Shown: positions 31,060 to 50,100 of the stretch, in pieces
Numbering within the stretch: position 1 is the stretch's first letter
How the letters are laid out: each line of letters starts with the position of its first letter
Origin: Desulfobacula sp.
GTDB lineage: Bacteria; Desulfobacterota; Desulfobacteria; Desulfobacterales; Desulfobacteraceae
Reading direction: 5' to 3'
DNA: 64,000 nt
Assembly: GCA_023701135.1 (NCBI GenBank)
Contig: JAMPXP010000008.1
Location: forward strand, 124,001-188,000
The notes under the pieces: model-generated
Database searches by the model: none
Seen by the model: the letters and a program-made list of their open reading frames with translations, nothing else
What the model was told of the DNA's origin: nothing
Program-made: the position numbers and the translations under genes

Positions 31060-31248
31060 GTGAAATTTTTATCCCTAATTTTTATCCCTAATGGGTGTCT
31101 GGCTTGTTCTATGAATCATAACCCCTTTATATAGCCTTGATAAATTCAATAATCAATATAATTTTTATTGCATATTAAGGGCTTAAGCTATAAAAATGAT
31201 GGCGGCTGGTAAAGCCGTTAGTGGAAGTAGAAAAAGGATCCAGGGATT

Positions 31249-31439
31249 ATGAAGTTTTTTTTATGTGTCATGGGCATGGTAATGATCATAGAAGGCCTGC
31301 CCTATTTTGCATTTCCTTCGAAGATGAAGGAATGGGTTTTGATGATGGTCGGAATAGATGATGCGAATTTAAGGAAATTCGGTTTTATCTTCATGACCGC
31401 AGGGCTGATCATTGTGTATCTGGCCATGAAAGGCAGTTG

Positions 31440-31440
<1 letters not shown>
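31249..31440 (+). CDS. DUF2065 family small membrane protein
   Basis: 63 residues with two hydrophobic helices (FLCVMGMVMIIEGLPYFAF and FGFIFMTAGLIIVYLAM) joined by a short loop, as in the DUF2065/YjeT family of inner-membrane proteins of unknown role. Its stop overlaps the queA start by one base (TGATG), so translation is coupled. An AGGGATT lies ahead of the ATG. Confidence 0.8.
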
Positions 31441-33661
<2,221 letters not shown>

Positions 33662-44422: not shown

Positions 44423-45043
44423 GTGATTGTAAAAAAACTTGAGGTTGGTCCCATTATGGCCAATTGTTATATGTTAGGATGTGAATCGACAAAGGAAGCC
44501 GTGGTGATCGATCCGGGCGATGATGCCGACCGGATTCTGATGGCACTTGCCAAAGCCGGGCTGAAAGTCAAATATCTGATCAATACCCATGGCCATTTTG
44601 ACCATGTGGGCGCCAACAAACGGATGAAGGAAGTGACCGGAGCAGAGCTGGCCATCCATCCCGATGATGAGCCCATGCTCAAAGAACTTTCCCGGTCTGC
44701 CATGATGTTTGGTTTGTCCGCGGAAAACTCGCCGCCGGCCGATATTCATTTGAATGACGGGGATGAGATCAGCTTTGGGGAGATCACCCTGACGGTCATC
44801 CATACGCCGGGCCATTCAAAGGGGGGGATCTGCCTTTATACCAAGGGGTATCTTTTTGCCGGGGACACCTTGTTTGCAGGCTCCATCGGCAGAACCGATC
44901 TGAACGGTGGGGACTATGATACATTGATTTCCAGCATCAAGGAAAAACTTCTGGTCCTTGAGCCCGACACCGTTGTCTATACCGGACATGGGCCTGAAAC
45001 CACCATTGCTAATGAAAAGAGAATGAATCCTTTTCTGAGATGA
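44423..45043 (+). CDS. Metallo-beta-lactamase fold hydrolase (glyoxalase II-like)
   Basis: 206 residues from GTG 44423 (GGAGG upstream). The metal motif THGHFDHVG, the later HTPGHSKGG, FAGDTLFAGSIGRTDL and TGHGPETTI carry the usual His/Asp ligands of glyoxalase II-like enzymes (YcbL type). Likely hydrolyses a thioester such as S-lactoylglutathione or a related substrate; the natural substrate is not evident. Its stop overlaps the pabB start. Confidence 0.88.
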   Translation: MIVKKLEVGPIMANCYMLGCESTKEAVVIDPGDDADRILMALAKAGLKVKYLINTHGHFDHVGANKRMKEVTGAELAIHPDDEPMLKELSRSAMMFGLSAENSPPADIHLNDGDEISFGEITLTVIHTPGHSKGGICLYTKGYLFAGDTLFAGSIGRTDLNGGDYDTLISSIKEKLLVLEPDTVVYTGHGPETTIANEKRMNPFLR

Positions 45044-47325
45044 ACAACCCAAAGATGGATGAATGGCTGAAACAGCTTCCCACCATCAAAGCCGTTCATC
45101 AGGAAATCCTTGCCCTGGACCGGCCCTTTGAAGACATAGCCGCGTTTTTTGCCCATGATATTGGGACAGTCCTCTTGTTATCCGGGGGGGATCTGGATTG
45201 TTCACAATATCATATCCTGGCCGTAAACCCCTGGCTTGAGATTCAAAGCCGAAAAGAAAAGGTTTCCGTCAGGTGCCTGGATAAAACCCTTGATCTTGAA
45301 ATAGATCCTTTTTTTGCCGTCCAGGCCATTCTGAATCAATTCAGGCTGGCTTCCGGCCCTGATGATATTCCGGTCTCTTCCGGTCTTTTCGGATATTTTT
45401 CCTATGATTTAAAGGACCGGATTGAAGATCTGCCGCGAACCGTCATGGAGACCGGTCTTCCTGATCTGGTCCTGTATGGGCCTTCGCTTATCCTGATCCG
45501 GGAAAAAGCAACGGGAAAGACAAGGCTTTGCATCCCCATCCTTTCCCATTCTGAGGGCCCGAAAGAAAATCAGGGCAAAGAGAAGGACAGGGTCCGGGAA
45601 ATACGGGAGTCTTTTTTTAAGATCATAGAAACCCAGGCTCCGAACCGGGCTTTTTCCATGGACGGTTCCGGATTCAAATCTAGCTTTACCAAAGCGGAAT
45701 ATATTTCTGCAGTCCAAAGCATCATTGGGTATCTGAGAGCCGGGGATATTTACCAGGCCAACCTGTCCCAGCGCTTTGAAACCGGTTTTTCCGGGGATGG
45801 CTATGCCCTGTTCCTGGACTTGTTCCACCGGAATCCCGCCCCGTTTTTTGCCTATATCCATGCCAAGGACCATACCATCGTGTCCACCTCACCGGAACGG
45901 TTCCTTTGGCAGACGGGCCGGAAGGTTGAAACACGTCCCATCAAGGGAACCATTGCCAGGGGGAAAACGGAAAAAGAGGACCGGGAAAACGGGGTGAGGC
46001 TCTGCGAGAGCATCAAGGATGATGCCGAGCTGACCATGATCGTGGATCTGATGCGAAACGACCTGTCCCGGGTGACCCGGCACGGGTCTGTGACGGTTAA
46101 AGAGCATAAACGCCTGGAACCCTATGCCAATGTGTTTCACCTGGTCTCCATTGTGGAAGGGGAGCTTGAAACGGACAAGACGTCCATGGACCTCATCCGG
46201 GCCACTTTTCCCGGAGGTTCCATTACCGGATGCCCCAAGATCCGGTCCATGGAGATCATTGATGAGCTGGAGCCGCTAAGACGCCATGTGTACACCGGCT
46301 CCATCGGATACGTCAGCTTTCACGACACCATGGACCTTTCCATTGCCATCCGGACCGCCGTTATTTCGGGCAACCGAATCCATTTTTCCGTGGGCGGCGG
46401 CATTGTCTATGATTCGAATCCTGAAAAAGAATTTCAGGAAACCCTTGATAAGGGCAAAACCCTCATGGAATCCTTAACCGCCGCCGCCCAGAGGCCAAGG
46501 ATGCAAAAAGCCAAAGCCTGGGTAAATGGAAAACAGGTTGATGCGGAAAAGGCCTCCATATCCCCTCTGAGCCTTGGATTCCATTATGGGGCAGGGCTTT
46601 TTGAGACTCTCCGGGCCGACAAGGGGGTTGTCTTCCGCGTCAAGCATCATCTTTCCCGGCTGAATCAATCCTGGGAAACGCTTTTTTCCGAACCCGCACC
46701 GGATATCACCTGGGAGGATATCATCGGGCCCCTGATCAGGGAAAACCGCCTTACGGACAGGCAGGCGGTCATTAAGCTCATTCTGGCCAAAGCTGGGCCG
46801 GAAAACGAAGGGGAACCCTTTCTGGCCGCCTTTGCGAGGGAATATTGCCACAGGCTGGACGTCCTTGGAAAAACCGGGCTGGACCTGGTCACCTATCCCT
46901 TTCCCCGGCAATCCCCCCTGGCGGACCATAAAACCCTGAACTATTTTTATTATTATCAGGCCGGGCAATATGCAAGGTCCCGACAGGCAGATGAAGCCCT
47001 TATCCTGAATCCGGACGGCACTGTTTCAGAAACCAACACGGCCGCTGTTTTTGTGGTTGAAAAAAACACGGTCATTGTTCCCGAATCGCTCCATGTTTTG
47101 CCCAGCGTGACCCTGAACTCGGTCTTGACCCTTCTGTCGGATAAGGGGTATGATATCAAAAGAAAAAAAATGGAGCCGGAGGCATTGTACTCTTCCCCCA
47201 ATGTTTTTCTGGCCAATGCCCTCATGGGAGCGGTAAAGGCCTTGAGTGTGGATGGTAAAAAAATAGACCAGGAAAAAGGAATCTGTTCCATGATCAATGA
47301 TTACCTTTTCAAGACCCCTTCCTGA
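45040..47325 (+). CDS. pabB: Aminodeoxychorismate synthase component I fused to class IV aminotransferase
   Basis: 761 residues. The first 490 form a chorismate-binding enzyme: GYLRAGDIYQANLSQRF, TSPERFLW, RPIKGTIARG, ELTMIVDLMRNDLSRV and FPGGSITGCPKI are PabB/TrpE hallmarks. From about 490 a fold-IV PLP domain follows (SLGFHYGAGLFETLR, ALILNPDGTVSETNTAAVFV), resembling aminodeoxychorismate lyase (PabC). One polypeptide would thus make p-aminobenzoate for folate from chorismate, with a separate glutaminase subunit elsewhere. Such PabB-PabC fusions are known. Confidence 0.93.
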   Translation: MNNPKMDEWLKQLPTIKAVHQEILALDRPFEDIAAFFAHDIGTVLLLSGGDLDCSQYHILAVNPWLEIQSRKEKVSVRCLDKTLDLEIDPFFAVQAILNQFRLASGPDDIPVSSGLFGYFSYDLKDRIEDLPRTVMETGLPDLVLYGPSLILIREKATGKTRLCIPILSHSEGPKENQGKEKDRVREIRESFFKIIETQAPNRAFSMDGSGFKSSFTKAEYISAVQSIIGYLRAGDIYQANLSQRFETGFSGDGYALFLDLFHRNPAPFFAYIHAKDHTIVSTSPERFLWQTGRKVETRPIKGTIARGKTEKEDRENGVRLCESIKDDAELTMIVDLMRNDLSRVTRHGSVTVKEHKRLEPYANVFHLVSIVEGELETDKTSMDLIRATFPGGSITGCPKIRSMEIIDELEPLRRHVYTGSIGYVSFHDTMDLSIAIRTAVISGNRIHFSVGGGIVYDSNPEKEFQETLDKGKTLMESLTAAAQRPRMQKAKAWVNGKQVDAEKASISPLSLGFHYGAGLFETLRADKGVVFRVKHHLSRLNQSWETLFSEPAPDITWEDIIGPLIRENRLTDRQAVIKLILAKAGPENEGEPFLAAFAREYCHRLDVLGKTGLDLVTYPFPRQSPLADHKTLNYFYYYQAGQYARSRQADEALILNPDGTVSETNTAAVFVVEKNTVIVPESLHVLPSVTLNSVLTLLSDKGYDIKRKKMEPEALYSSPNVFLANALMGAVKALSVDGKKIDQEKGICSMINDYLFKTPS

Positions 47326-47347: not shown

Positions 47348-48046
47348 ATGAAACAAAAGATGCTTTTGATGACTGTTCTGATGATGGTTTTGGCCTTTCC
47401 GTGTGCGGGAATGGCCCTGCAGAAAGCTGATATCATTGACCCGGTTTTTACATTTCAACCCGTGCCCGAAGGTGTTCATGTTGACCATACCTTTATTGTG
47501 AAGAATACGGGCGACACCCTGTTGAGAATCGAAAAAGTTTCCCCTCCCTGAGGCTGTGACCAGCACTCCTTTGACAGTGAAATTCCCCCGGGCGGGGAAG
47601 GAAAAATCAGTGTGGGATTTAAAACCCTGGGGTATGGCGGAAAGACCATGACCAAAACCATCCTGGTCAAAACCGATGATCCTCAGCGAAGAGCCTTGAA
47701 CCTGGTGGTGACAGGCCAGGTGGACCGGATTGCGGAAATCAGCCCGCCGTCGGTATATCTGAACGGGAAAGCCGGGGATACCTTGGAGGCGGTGGTGACC
47801 ATAACCCCTTCTGAAAAATATGCATTTTCCGTTTTGGGGCTGGAAAAGAGGAACAAGAGCGGAATCGAGGCAATCCTGGTTCAGCCGGAAAAGGGCGCCA
47901 GAACCTGGCAGATTCAGATCAAATGCCGCTCGGACAAGACAGAGGACCTGTATGACGAATTGGTCCTGAAAACAGACAGCCCACATGCGCCGACGATCGG
48001 CATCAGAGTATCGGCCGTCTTCCTTGATAAAAAGAAAACCAACTAA
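47348..48046 (+). CDS. Exported DUF1573 protein with in-frame UGA (probable selenoprotein)
   Basis: Read through TGA 47549-47551 as selenocysteine, this is a 232-residue protein with signal peptide (about 1-24). DUF1573 text continues on both sides of the TGA in one frame: HTFIVKNTGDTLLRIEKV, then SPP-U-GC, then IPPGGEGKISVGFKTLG and MTKTILVKTDD. In ordinary DUF1573 proteins this site reads CGC, so UGA (residue 68) replaces the first Cys exactly. A 6-bp stem TTCCCC (47583-47588)/GGGGAA (47594-47599) with loop CGGGC begins its loop 37 bases after the UGA, at the far edge of the bacterial SECIS range. A broken gene is less likely because coding continues cleanly. Probably periplasmic, possibly metal- or redox-related. 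Confidence 0.8.
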
Positions 48047-48069: not shown

Positions 48070-48699
48070 ATGGAAATTTTAAAAATTAAGGCTGTGATAT
48101 TTGACTGCGACGGGGTCATGTTTGATACGGCCCTTGCCAACCGGAAATATTATGATGAAGTCCTGGCAGCCTTTAACAAACCTGGGCTGAATGAAGAACA
48201 GTTTATCAACGTCCATATGATGACGGTAAAGGAAGCCATTGAATATCTTTTTCCCGAGATCAGGGATCTTTCACGGGTGTATGAATGCTTGAGCCATATC
48301 GGCTACCATAAATTCATCAATTATATGGTCATGGAAGAAGGGCTTAAAGAACTGCTCGCGGCGCTTAAAAATAACGGCTATATCCGGGGGATTGCCACCA
48401 ACCGGACCAATACCATGGAAAAGGTGCTGGAAGACTTCCATCTTAAAAATGATTTTGAAATTGTGGTTACTGCTGCAACCGTCAAACATCCCAAACCTGA
48501 CCCGGAACAATTATTGCTGATCATGGAAAAATATCAATTAAAACCCCATGAAATTCTTTTTATAGGGGATTCCGAATATGACCGCCAGGCTGCCGCCGCT
48601 GCCGGGGTGTGGTTTGCAGGGTTTAAAAATCCAGGGTTAAAGGCAGATGTGAATGTGGTGTCCATGGATGAGATTGGCGGGATTTTACAGATAAATTAA
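48070..48699 (+). CDS. HAD-superfamily hydrolase (phosphoglycolate phosphatase-like)
   Basis: 209 residues. Motif I is VIFDCDGVMFDTA, motif II GIATNRTNTME (Thr), motif III KHPKPDPEQL (Lys) and motif IV FIGDSEYDRQAA, in the order and spacing of class I HAD phosphatases with a helical cap (residues 20-85). Substrate unknown; Gph-like. Between the DUF1573 gene and sat. Confidence 0.9.
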   Translation: MEILKIKAVIFDCDGVMFDTALANRKYYDEVLAAFNKPGLNEEQFINVHMMTVKEAIEYLFPEIRDLSRVYECLSHIGYHKFINYMVMEEGLKELLAALKNNGYIRGIATNRTNTMEKVLEDFHLKNDFEIVVTAATVKHPKPDPEQLLLIMEKYQLKPHEILFIGDSEYDRQAAAAAGVWFAGFKNPGLKADVNVVSMDEIGGILQIN

Positions 48700-48736: not shown

Positions 48737-48822
48737 TTACGAGATTTTATTGGTTAAAATGCGTGATAAATGTTGGAAAAACATTTATTAAAGGTGAAAC
48801 ATAAACAAGGAGAAGAGTGAAT

Positions 48823-50100
48823 ATGTCTAAATTAGTAGCACCTCATGGTGGAAAAGGCCTCGTCATTTGTAAACTCGAAGGCGCAGCTCGTGATGCAGAA
48901 CTGAAAAAAGCAGCCGGATTAAAGAAAATCGAGATTTCTTCCCAGGTCAAAGGCGACTTGATCATGCTGGGTATCGGTGGGTTCAGCCCGCTTAACGGTT
49001 TCATGACCAAGGCAGACTGGAAAGGCGTTTGTGCGGATTTCCTTCTGGCAGACGGCACCTTCTGGCCCGTTCCGGTGATGTTGGATGCTTCCAAGGCCGA
49101 AGCAGATGCCATCAAGGTGGGTGATGAGATTGCCCTGGAAAGAAAGGGTGAAATTTTTGCCACCATGAAAGTCACGGAAAAATTCACATTGACCGAAGAC
49201 GAGAAAAAATGGGAATGTGATAAAGTCTATAAGGGCCATGGTGAAGAATCAGCCGATGCCGTATTCTTTGAAAAAGCCATGAAAGATCATCCGGGCGTCC
49301 AGATGGTCATGGCCAGAAAAGAATTCTGCCTTGCCGGTCCTGTAAAAGTTCTTTCTGAAGGTGAATTCCCCACAAAATTCAAAGGCGTTTACCTGACCCC
49401 GGCTGAAACCCGCGCCATATTTGACAAGAGAGGCTGGGCCAATGTTGCAGCGCTTCAGCTCAGAAACCCCATGCACAGATCCCATGAGATTCTGGCCAAG
49501 ATCGCCATTGACGTGTGTGACGGCGTTCTGATCCATTCTCTCATCGGTAACCTGAAACCCGGCGACATTCCGGCCGATGTCCGTATCGAATGTATTGATG
49601 CGCTGATCAAAGGGTATTTTGTTCCCGAGAATATCCTCAATGCCGGATATCCCCTTGACATGAGATATGCAGGACCCAGAGAAGCCCTTCTTCATGCCAC
49701 CTTCCGCCAGAACTACGGCGTTAACAAGATGATCATCGGCCGTGACCATGCAGGCGTTGGCGACTTCTACACCCTGTTTGAAGCCCAGGAAATTTTTGAT
49801 ACGATTCCGACCCCGAAAGAACCGGGCAAAGCCCTGCTGTGCCAGCCCCTGAAAATCGACTGGACCTTCTACTGCTTTAAATGCGACGGCATGGCCTCCC
49901 TGAAAACCTGCCCCCATGCAAAAGAAGACAGGGTCGTCCTTTCCGGAACCAAGCTGCGCCATGCGCTTTCCAATGGTGAAGCTGTTGTGGATCATTTCGG
50001 CCGCGAAGAAGTTCTGGTCATCCTGAGGAAATACTATGCATCTCTGACGGAAAAAGTTGAAGTCAAACTCCAGAGCCATGCTCAGGGAAGCAAGATGTAA
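48823..50100 (+). CDS. sat: Sulfate adenylyltransferase (ATP sulfurylase)
   Basis: 425 residues from ATG 48823 (AGGAG ten bases ahead). [14 protein letters not shown] contains the RNPxHxxH nucleotide-binding motif, [11 protein letters not shown] is the second ATP site, and a [15 protein letters not shown] cysteine-rich segment is typical of Sat from sulfate reducers. Activates sulfate to APS, the first step of dissimilatory sulfate reduction, in the cytoplasm. Codon usage (frequent AAA, GGC, CTG) and flanking promoter and terminator suggest high expression. aprBA is not in the window. Confidence 0.97.

Follow-up and report, generated by a model that had tools for sequence, protein, structure and literature searches.

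RESULTS

An interrupted DUF1573 gene

The window (i.e., the whole 64,000-nucleotide stretch of a Desulfobacula sp. contig that we analyzed) contains a DUF1573 gene whose frame is divided by a single TGA. The gene, its parts, and its neighbors are as follows:

45040 to 47325, + strand: fused chorismate-binding (PabB-like)/aminotransferase class IV gene, upstream
47348 to 48046, + strand: DUF1573/OS_HP2 gene with one UGA read through (232 aa; stop codon, TAA)
47348 to 47419, + strand: N-terminal hydrophobic stretch, probable signal peptide (judged by eye from the sequence)
47444 to 47722, + strand: first DUF1573/Ig-like (ASH-type) domain, which carries the UGC motif
47549 to 47551, + strand: in-frame TGA, proposed selenocysteine codon (codon 68), residue 1 of UGC
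47771 to 48016, + strand: second DUF1573-like domain, without the motif
48070 to 48699, + strand: HAD-family phosphatase gene, downstream
48817 to 50100, + strand: sulfate adenylyltransferase gene (sat)

The frame from 47348 to 48046 starts with ATG and ends with TAA, and the TGA at 47549 to 47551 is the only other stop within it. Standard translation divides the locus into two ORFs of 84 aa (start at 47297) and 144 aa, and taking the TGA as a stop would shorten the DUF1573 protein. The read-through product matches the Pfam DUF1573 model (PF07610; E = 2.2e-15; 56.9 bits; gathering cutoff, 26.1) over residues 33 to 125, and its UGC motif occupies residues 68 to 70, where other copies in the alignment have C-G-C. 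The frame, the Pfam match, and the alignment thus confirm the claim of an earlier note on this DNA that the TGA replaces the first Cys of the DUF1573 CGC motif (U-G-C). The in-frame UGA aligns with the Cys of homologues, as expected of a bacterial selenoprotein. The earlier note also described an exported selenoprotein; the selenocysteine (Sec) reading is supported, and the protein is probably exported, as judged by eye from its N terminus.

The sel genes, proposed as a check on this reading, are all present in the genome. The tRNA-Sec (selC) scored 76.8 bits, SelB scored 352.9 bits, SelA was found at E = 3.6e-184, and selD has an in-frame TGA of its own. TGA is otherwise a normal stop codon here, ending 5 of the 16 window genes checked, and a reassigned TGA was rejected on this ground.

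OS_HP2 was reportedly first listed in 2007, in a study of the Olavius algarvensis symbionts. The window protein has the DUF1573 domain and the UGC motif in common with this family and exceeds the curated cutoff of its NCBIfam model (NF041425, "OS_HP2 family (seleno)protein"; 120.3 bits versus 100; residues 32 to 125). Tables in the available portions of PMC9312934 and PMC13188914 give DUF1573 with the motif UGC as OS_HP2, and the former credits Zhang and Gladyshev 2007 for DUF1573/UGC. A 2008 GOS table, in the excerpt of PMC2398784 that we used, equates OS_HP2 with pfam07610 and appears, if its columns are read correctly, to count 2 Sec sequences and 354 Cys homologues. Since OS_HP2 is already curated and tabulated in these portions of the literature, the earlier suggestion that the family is new and missing from selenoprotein lists fails, while the codon reading stands. 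What survives of the earlier interpretation is therefore a DUF1573 protein in which the UGA is read as Sec and which is probably exported. With this gene, a selenoprotein family that has received little study gains well-supported members.

Homologues and selection

The genome of origin has two DUF1573 copies, each with one TGA, and the family occurs in 129 of 145 genomes of relatives. The Sec form appears to predominate in the window's order: among the 150 matches listed for these relatives, which are the stronger ones, 119 have exactly one TGA and 31 have none, with the TGA position verified in the fetched loci only. The same-genus matches listed all have one TGA (25/25). The fetched loci were hand-picked and are mostly TGA bearing, plus Cys-type ones; given this selection by type, their U/C proportions are not those of a random sample. 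On that understanding, 84 of the 107 copies have U in the motif column and the other 23 have C, with one copy per place examined (i.e., 106 loci after 6 duplicates were dropped, plus the window; the filter sought U or C, and all copies passed). Cys is thus found in homologues at the U column, as the earlier note had anticipated. The middle letter of the motif differs in a few copies (USC, CSC, and CRC).

In named genomes, a scan confirmed 227 stretches, of which the best 80 were retained as loci; all 80 have U. The patterns used (PPCGCD and IPPGGEGK) and this retention bias the scan to near relatives, and its result overlaps with the 107-copy set. The 80 loci include those of Desulfobacula MAGs, Desulfospira joergensenii DSM 10085, Desulfobacter latus, D. 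vibrioformis DSM 8776, Desulfocicer vacuolatum, and Desulfamplus magnetovallimortis. At the phylum level, the family was detected in 140 of 297 genomes, and UGC was present in 38 of 40 TGA-bearing hits that we chose. Variant Sec motifs at this level are CUG (L249) and UAC (L226), in place of UGC.

In a tree of 145 rows, U and C interchange at least 11 times. We call Sec copies with Asp after UGC type A, which is the window's subtype, and Sec copies without Asp there type B. Type A comprises 26 rows, all with U, in one clade (SH-aLRT, 99).

Compared with two close relatives, dN/dS is 0.27 and 0.29 downstream of the TGA and lower upstream (0.08 and 0.23); by these estimates, selection is purifying past the TGA. 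A pseudogene, a sequencing error, or a truncated 67-aa product followed by a separate downstream gene would suit the split into 84-aa and 144-aa ORFs but is extremely unlikely and was rejected, because the TGA is shared by many assemblies (named isolates included) and by both copies in the genome, homologues have Cys at the column, and selection past the TGA is purifying. The gene very probably encodes an OS_HP2/DUF1573 selenoprotein of a Desulfobacula-type marine sulfate reducer, with the UGA at 47549 specifying Sec.

Predicted fold, gene neighborhood, and possible function

The AlphaFold2 model (47 aligned rows; mean pLDDT, 96.4; pTM, 0.85) is all-beta, with tandem Ig-like domains. In the model numbering, U is residue 44 and lies in a loop, while C is residue 46 and is the first residue of a strand; the U-G-C pair is predicted to sit in a loop of the Ig-like beta sandwich. 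The top Foldseek matches were ciliary central-pair Ig-like domains (E = 3.3e-10) and PDB 2qsv (E = 2.5e-9), and TM-scores normalized by query length were modest (0.27 to 0.46 among the 50 matches listed). The ciliary domains are alike in fold (best chain, 0.44 on the same scale). The 2qsv protein, from Porphyromonas gingivalis and of unknown function, resembles the DUF1573 protein in its tandem Ig-like fold (0.37), and its aligned part is without the CGC motif. A PDB sequence search with the single protein gave no match, and a profile search retrieved 2qsv at E = 0.027 as one of 16 weak matches. A thioredoxin-fold oxidoreductase was also considered and rejected, as the model is an all-beta, tandem Ig-like one and the top Foldseek rows are Ig-like.

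In 53 of the 77 loci examined, the next ORF downstream encodes a homologue of the HAD phosphatase; such loci belong to both subtypes (type A, 22/23; type B, 31/49; Cys copies, 0/5). A plasmid search gave no match. Since the window copy lies among housekeeping genes, its function was read from the paralogue in the same genome (L048; C36:23000-31000), a UGC-DUF1573 gene in a cluster with two Thioredoxin genes and with DsbD_TM, Rhodanese, MauE, and ArsP_1 genes. Loci related to this cluster add ArsR, Thioredoxin_3, and DGC genes. By analogy, the U-G-C motif and the paralogue cluster point to a periplasmic thiol/selenol redox role, which we consider somewhat likely. The exported product, as its N terminus suggests, would then cycle in the periplasm between the selenol/thiol and selenenylsulfide forms of its UGC, presumably at the expense of thioredoxin/DsbD-type reductants such as those suggested by the motif and the cluster. 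Alternatively, the UGA may encode Sec while UGC binds a metal or seleno/arseno species. The ArsP_1 permease of the paralogue cluster, together with the ArsR regulator and DGC protein added in relatives, would suit such binding, but the same cluster also includes two thioredoxin-domain proteins, DsbD_TM, and a rhodanese, and we regard this alternative to thiol redox as rather unlikely.

Hairpins downstream of the UGA in the window's gene

Two hairpins can be drawn downstream of the UGA:

47564 to 47579, + strand: hairpin I, CACU/AGUG, loop CCUUUGAC (4 bp, weak here); proposed spacer
47583 to 47599, + strand: hairpin II, UUCCCC/GGGGAA, loop CGGGC; proposed SelB-binding hairpin

Hairpin II had been described in the earlier note as a 6-bp stem with its CGGGC loop 37 bases past the UGA, and we found exactly this (TTCCCC at 47583 to 47588 and GGGGAA at 47594 to 47599, with the loop separated from the UGA by 37 nt). 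The bacterial SECIS (bSECIS) model, as given in the available part of PMC13188914, has a stem of 4 to 16 bp, a loop of 3 to 9 nt that has G among its first two letters, a distance of 16 to 37 nt from the UGA, and a minimum free energy of -7.5 or lower. Hairpin II satisfies this model (6 bp; 5-nt loop; G at position 2; 37 nt; -8.9 kcal/mol for the zone), and its spacing equals the limit of the model in that part of the source, in agreement with the earlier placement at the edge of the range. The earlier RNA reading was correct as to this distal hairpin but missed a second one between it and the UGA, which first became evident on folding relatives.

The window's own two hairpins rank at 0.14 and 0.22 against synonymous recodings, and neither is significant alone. 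Hairpin II overlaps the PPGG codons, and the same turn occurs in Cys copies. No Rfam family matched the window at gathering thresholds. For the window's gene, the case for two hairpins is one that rests on relatives, not on its own predicted hairpins.

Tandem hairpins across the family

The hairpins slide by a few nucleotides between subtypes, so tests were done by zone and subtype; an RNAalifold consensus of the whole set gave no common structure. The null model consisted of random synonymous recodings that kept each protein and its local codon usage. Type B copies ranked among the best 5% of recodings for hairpin I in 40 of 58 cases and for hairpin II in 27 of 58. The corresponding numbers were 24 and 12 of 37 in a separate phylum-level set (i.e., 38 copies minus one identical copy), 5 and 1 of 26 for type A, and 3 and 0 of 22 for Cys copies. 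A smaller run, which excluded L020, L030, L050, L123, and one identical copy, gave 40 and 22 of 55 for type B, 4 and 1 of 25 for type A, and 4 and 0 of 22 for Cys copies. Column-wise codon shuffling was uninformative in type A because hairpin II is nearly invariant there.

Covariation was assessed in 43 type B copies that lack Asp at columns 25 to 27, using shuffles that keep relatedness; the structure was derived from the same sequences, which favors its unslid version in the comparisons with slid controls. The two-hairpin structure had 81.8% of cells paired (75.3% in shuffled alignments), two-sided changes in 48 cells (18.4 shuffled), and a covariation score of 0.298 (0.194 shuffled), each value being reached in 0 of 500 shuffles, and the slid controls fell below the unslid structure on all three measures. 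There was no excess in the number of pairs with a two-sided change (7 versus 5.6; 109/500) or in further pair types (18 versus 18.1), and slides of -1 and -2 had more pairs with a two-sided change (8 and 10) than the unslid structure had (7). Within hairpin I, columns 17 and 30 form UA in 20 and CG in 19 of the 43 copies.

A bare 4-bp hairpin is unspecific, being present in 17 of 22 Cys copies in each zone and in 17 of 25 selD genes in the hairpin II zone. At a spacing of 16 or more, loops with G among their first two letters occur in the hairpin I zone of 10/25 type A copies and 8/55 type B copies and in the hairpin II zone of 25/25 and 49/55, respectively; the Cys (12/22) and selD (13/25) controls also have G-bearing hairpins in the hairpin II zone, so their bare presence is weak evidence. 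Within the 37-nt limit, a G-bearing hairpin II was present in every type A copy (25/25) and in 19 of the 55 type B copies.

A covariance model of the element, applied to the genome of origin, found the two DUF1573 copies and no other match at E < 0.01 among the 150 of 1,846 first-look candidates that were scored. At the class level, it matched in 40 of 40 genomes, and at least three of these matches are Cys copies (G026:C10, G115:C6, and G045:C73). The model includes sequence, and its matches are therefore no proof of structure.

Two side observations concern individual loci. L212, L215, L216, L220, and L221 form a subfamily with one additional codon between UGC and PPGG, and the folds of L215, L216, L220, and L221 still place a hairpin between the UGA and hairpin II. 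L080 is a Cys copy inside a Sec clade; its hairpin II is still strong, which would fit a recent loss of Sec.

Comparison with selD

The selD genes of related genomes (25 of 30 loci; 5 were lost to a motif filter) resemble the DUF1573 genes in that their UGA precedes a hairpin whose apex bears G. A scan for synonymous-site selection gave a single peak in selD at +20 to +23 (mean z, -2.27), whereas the DUF1573 Sec copies have two: +20 to +23 (-2.19 and -2.13) and +41 (-1.63) in type B (56 copies) and +20 (-1.43) and +38 (-1.25) in type A (25 copies). The 22 Cys copies showed no peak, all values being above -0.3. All 25 selD genes have a G-bearing loop at canonical spacing, and in the selD of the window's genome the loop starts 17 nt past the UGA. 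By arithmetic on the structures, omitting hairpin I leaves a path from the UGA to the apex of hairpin II that measures 21 nt in the window and 19 nt in a type B copy of the typical form.

DISCUSSION

The Sec copies as a set, unlike the Cys copies, may carry two tandem hairpins (+20 to +23, and +38 to +41 with a GG apex) under synonymous-site selection, a sequence-based proposition to which we give an even chance of being right. We put similar trust, neither higher nor lower than one half, in the proposal that these form a bipartite SECIS, in which a spacer hairpin, placed where a SECIS normally lies, and a distal SelB-binding hairpin together recode the UGA of the family. The spacer hairpin would lack the SelB-contacting G in most copies, and the distal GG apex would lie in a conserved Gly codon. 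SelB and Sec-tRNA would decode the UGA at 47549 as Sec, with the downstream RNA as the signal; hairpin II would offer its conserved GG apex to SelB, and hairpin I would fold out about 16 to 20 nt as a spacer. With hairpin I folded out, the path from the UGA to the apex (19 to 21 nt) would come near the 17 nt of selD, and a site 37 to 39 nt away would act as if it were 19 to 21 nt away.

Hairpin II may instead act alone as a standard single-hairpin bSECIS with a spacing close to the upper limit, hairpin I being incidental or a cause of pausing. The window's hairpin II fits the bSECIS consensus, G-bearing versions lie within 37 nt in all 25 type A copies, and hairpin I is weak in that type (best 5% in 5/26). 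Against this stand the ranks of hairpin I among recodings in type B (40/58) and in the phylum-level set (24/37), the covariation of its pairs (columns 17 and 30; UA in 20 and CG in 19 of 43), and the fact that the family adds a hairpin between the UGA and hairpin II, with 36 of 55 type B copies departing from the consensus in having no G-bearing hairpin II inside the 37-nt limit (merely 19 have one). We consider a lone hairpin II a real possibility, at rather less than even odds. That hairpin I (+20 to +23) itself binds SelB, with hairpin II as an accessory, is improbable: its position equals that of the selD hairpin, but an early-loop G is confined to a minority of its copies (10/25 in type A and 8/55 in type B), compared with all 25 selD genes, and G-bearing loops are instead common in the hairpin II zone (25/25 and 49/55), a feature that is itself unspecific (Cys copies, 12/22; selD, 13/25).

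If the bipartite SECIS is real, the two-hairpin signal would account for a recoding hairpin beyond the usual spacing limit and would represent a distinct class of bacterial SECIS, found in many families of the window's phylum. It would also improve SECIS search models, which are said in the available portions of PMC13188914 and PMC12013277 to miss atypical elements. What may be new here is the RNA signal, not the protein family. The portions of the OS_HP2 listings at hand give an example, counts, and the motif, and the two-hairpin signal is absent from those portions. Literature searches for a two-hairpin bacterial SECIS found none among the papers listed, a weak negative result; the 2007 source study may depict the SECIS.

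Other frames in the window may likewise be interrupted by TGA. A scan for them returned at least 13 candidates, with an overlap filter that also removed the DUF1573 gene itself. From 31200 to 32498 on the + strand, for instance, a TGA at 31359 divides an open frame into 53 and 379 codons, an arrangement that may be due to chance.
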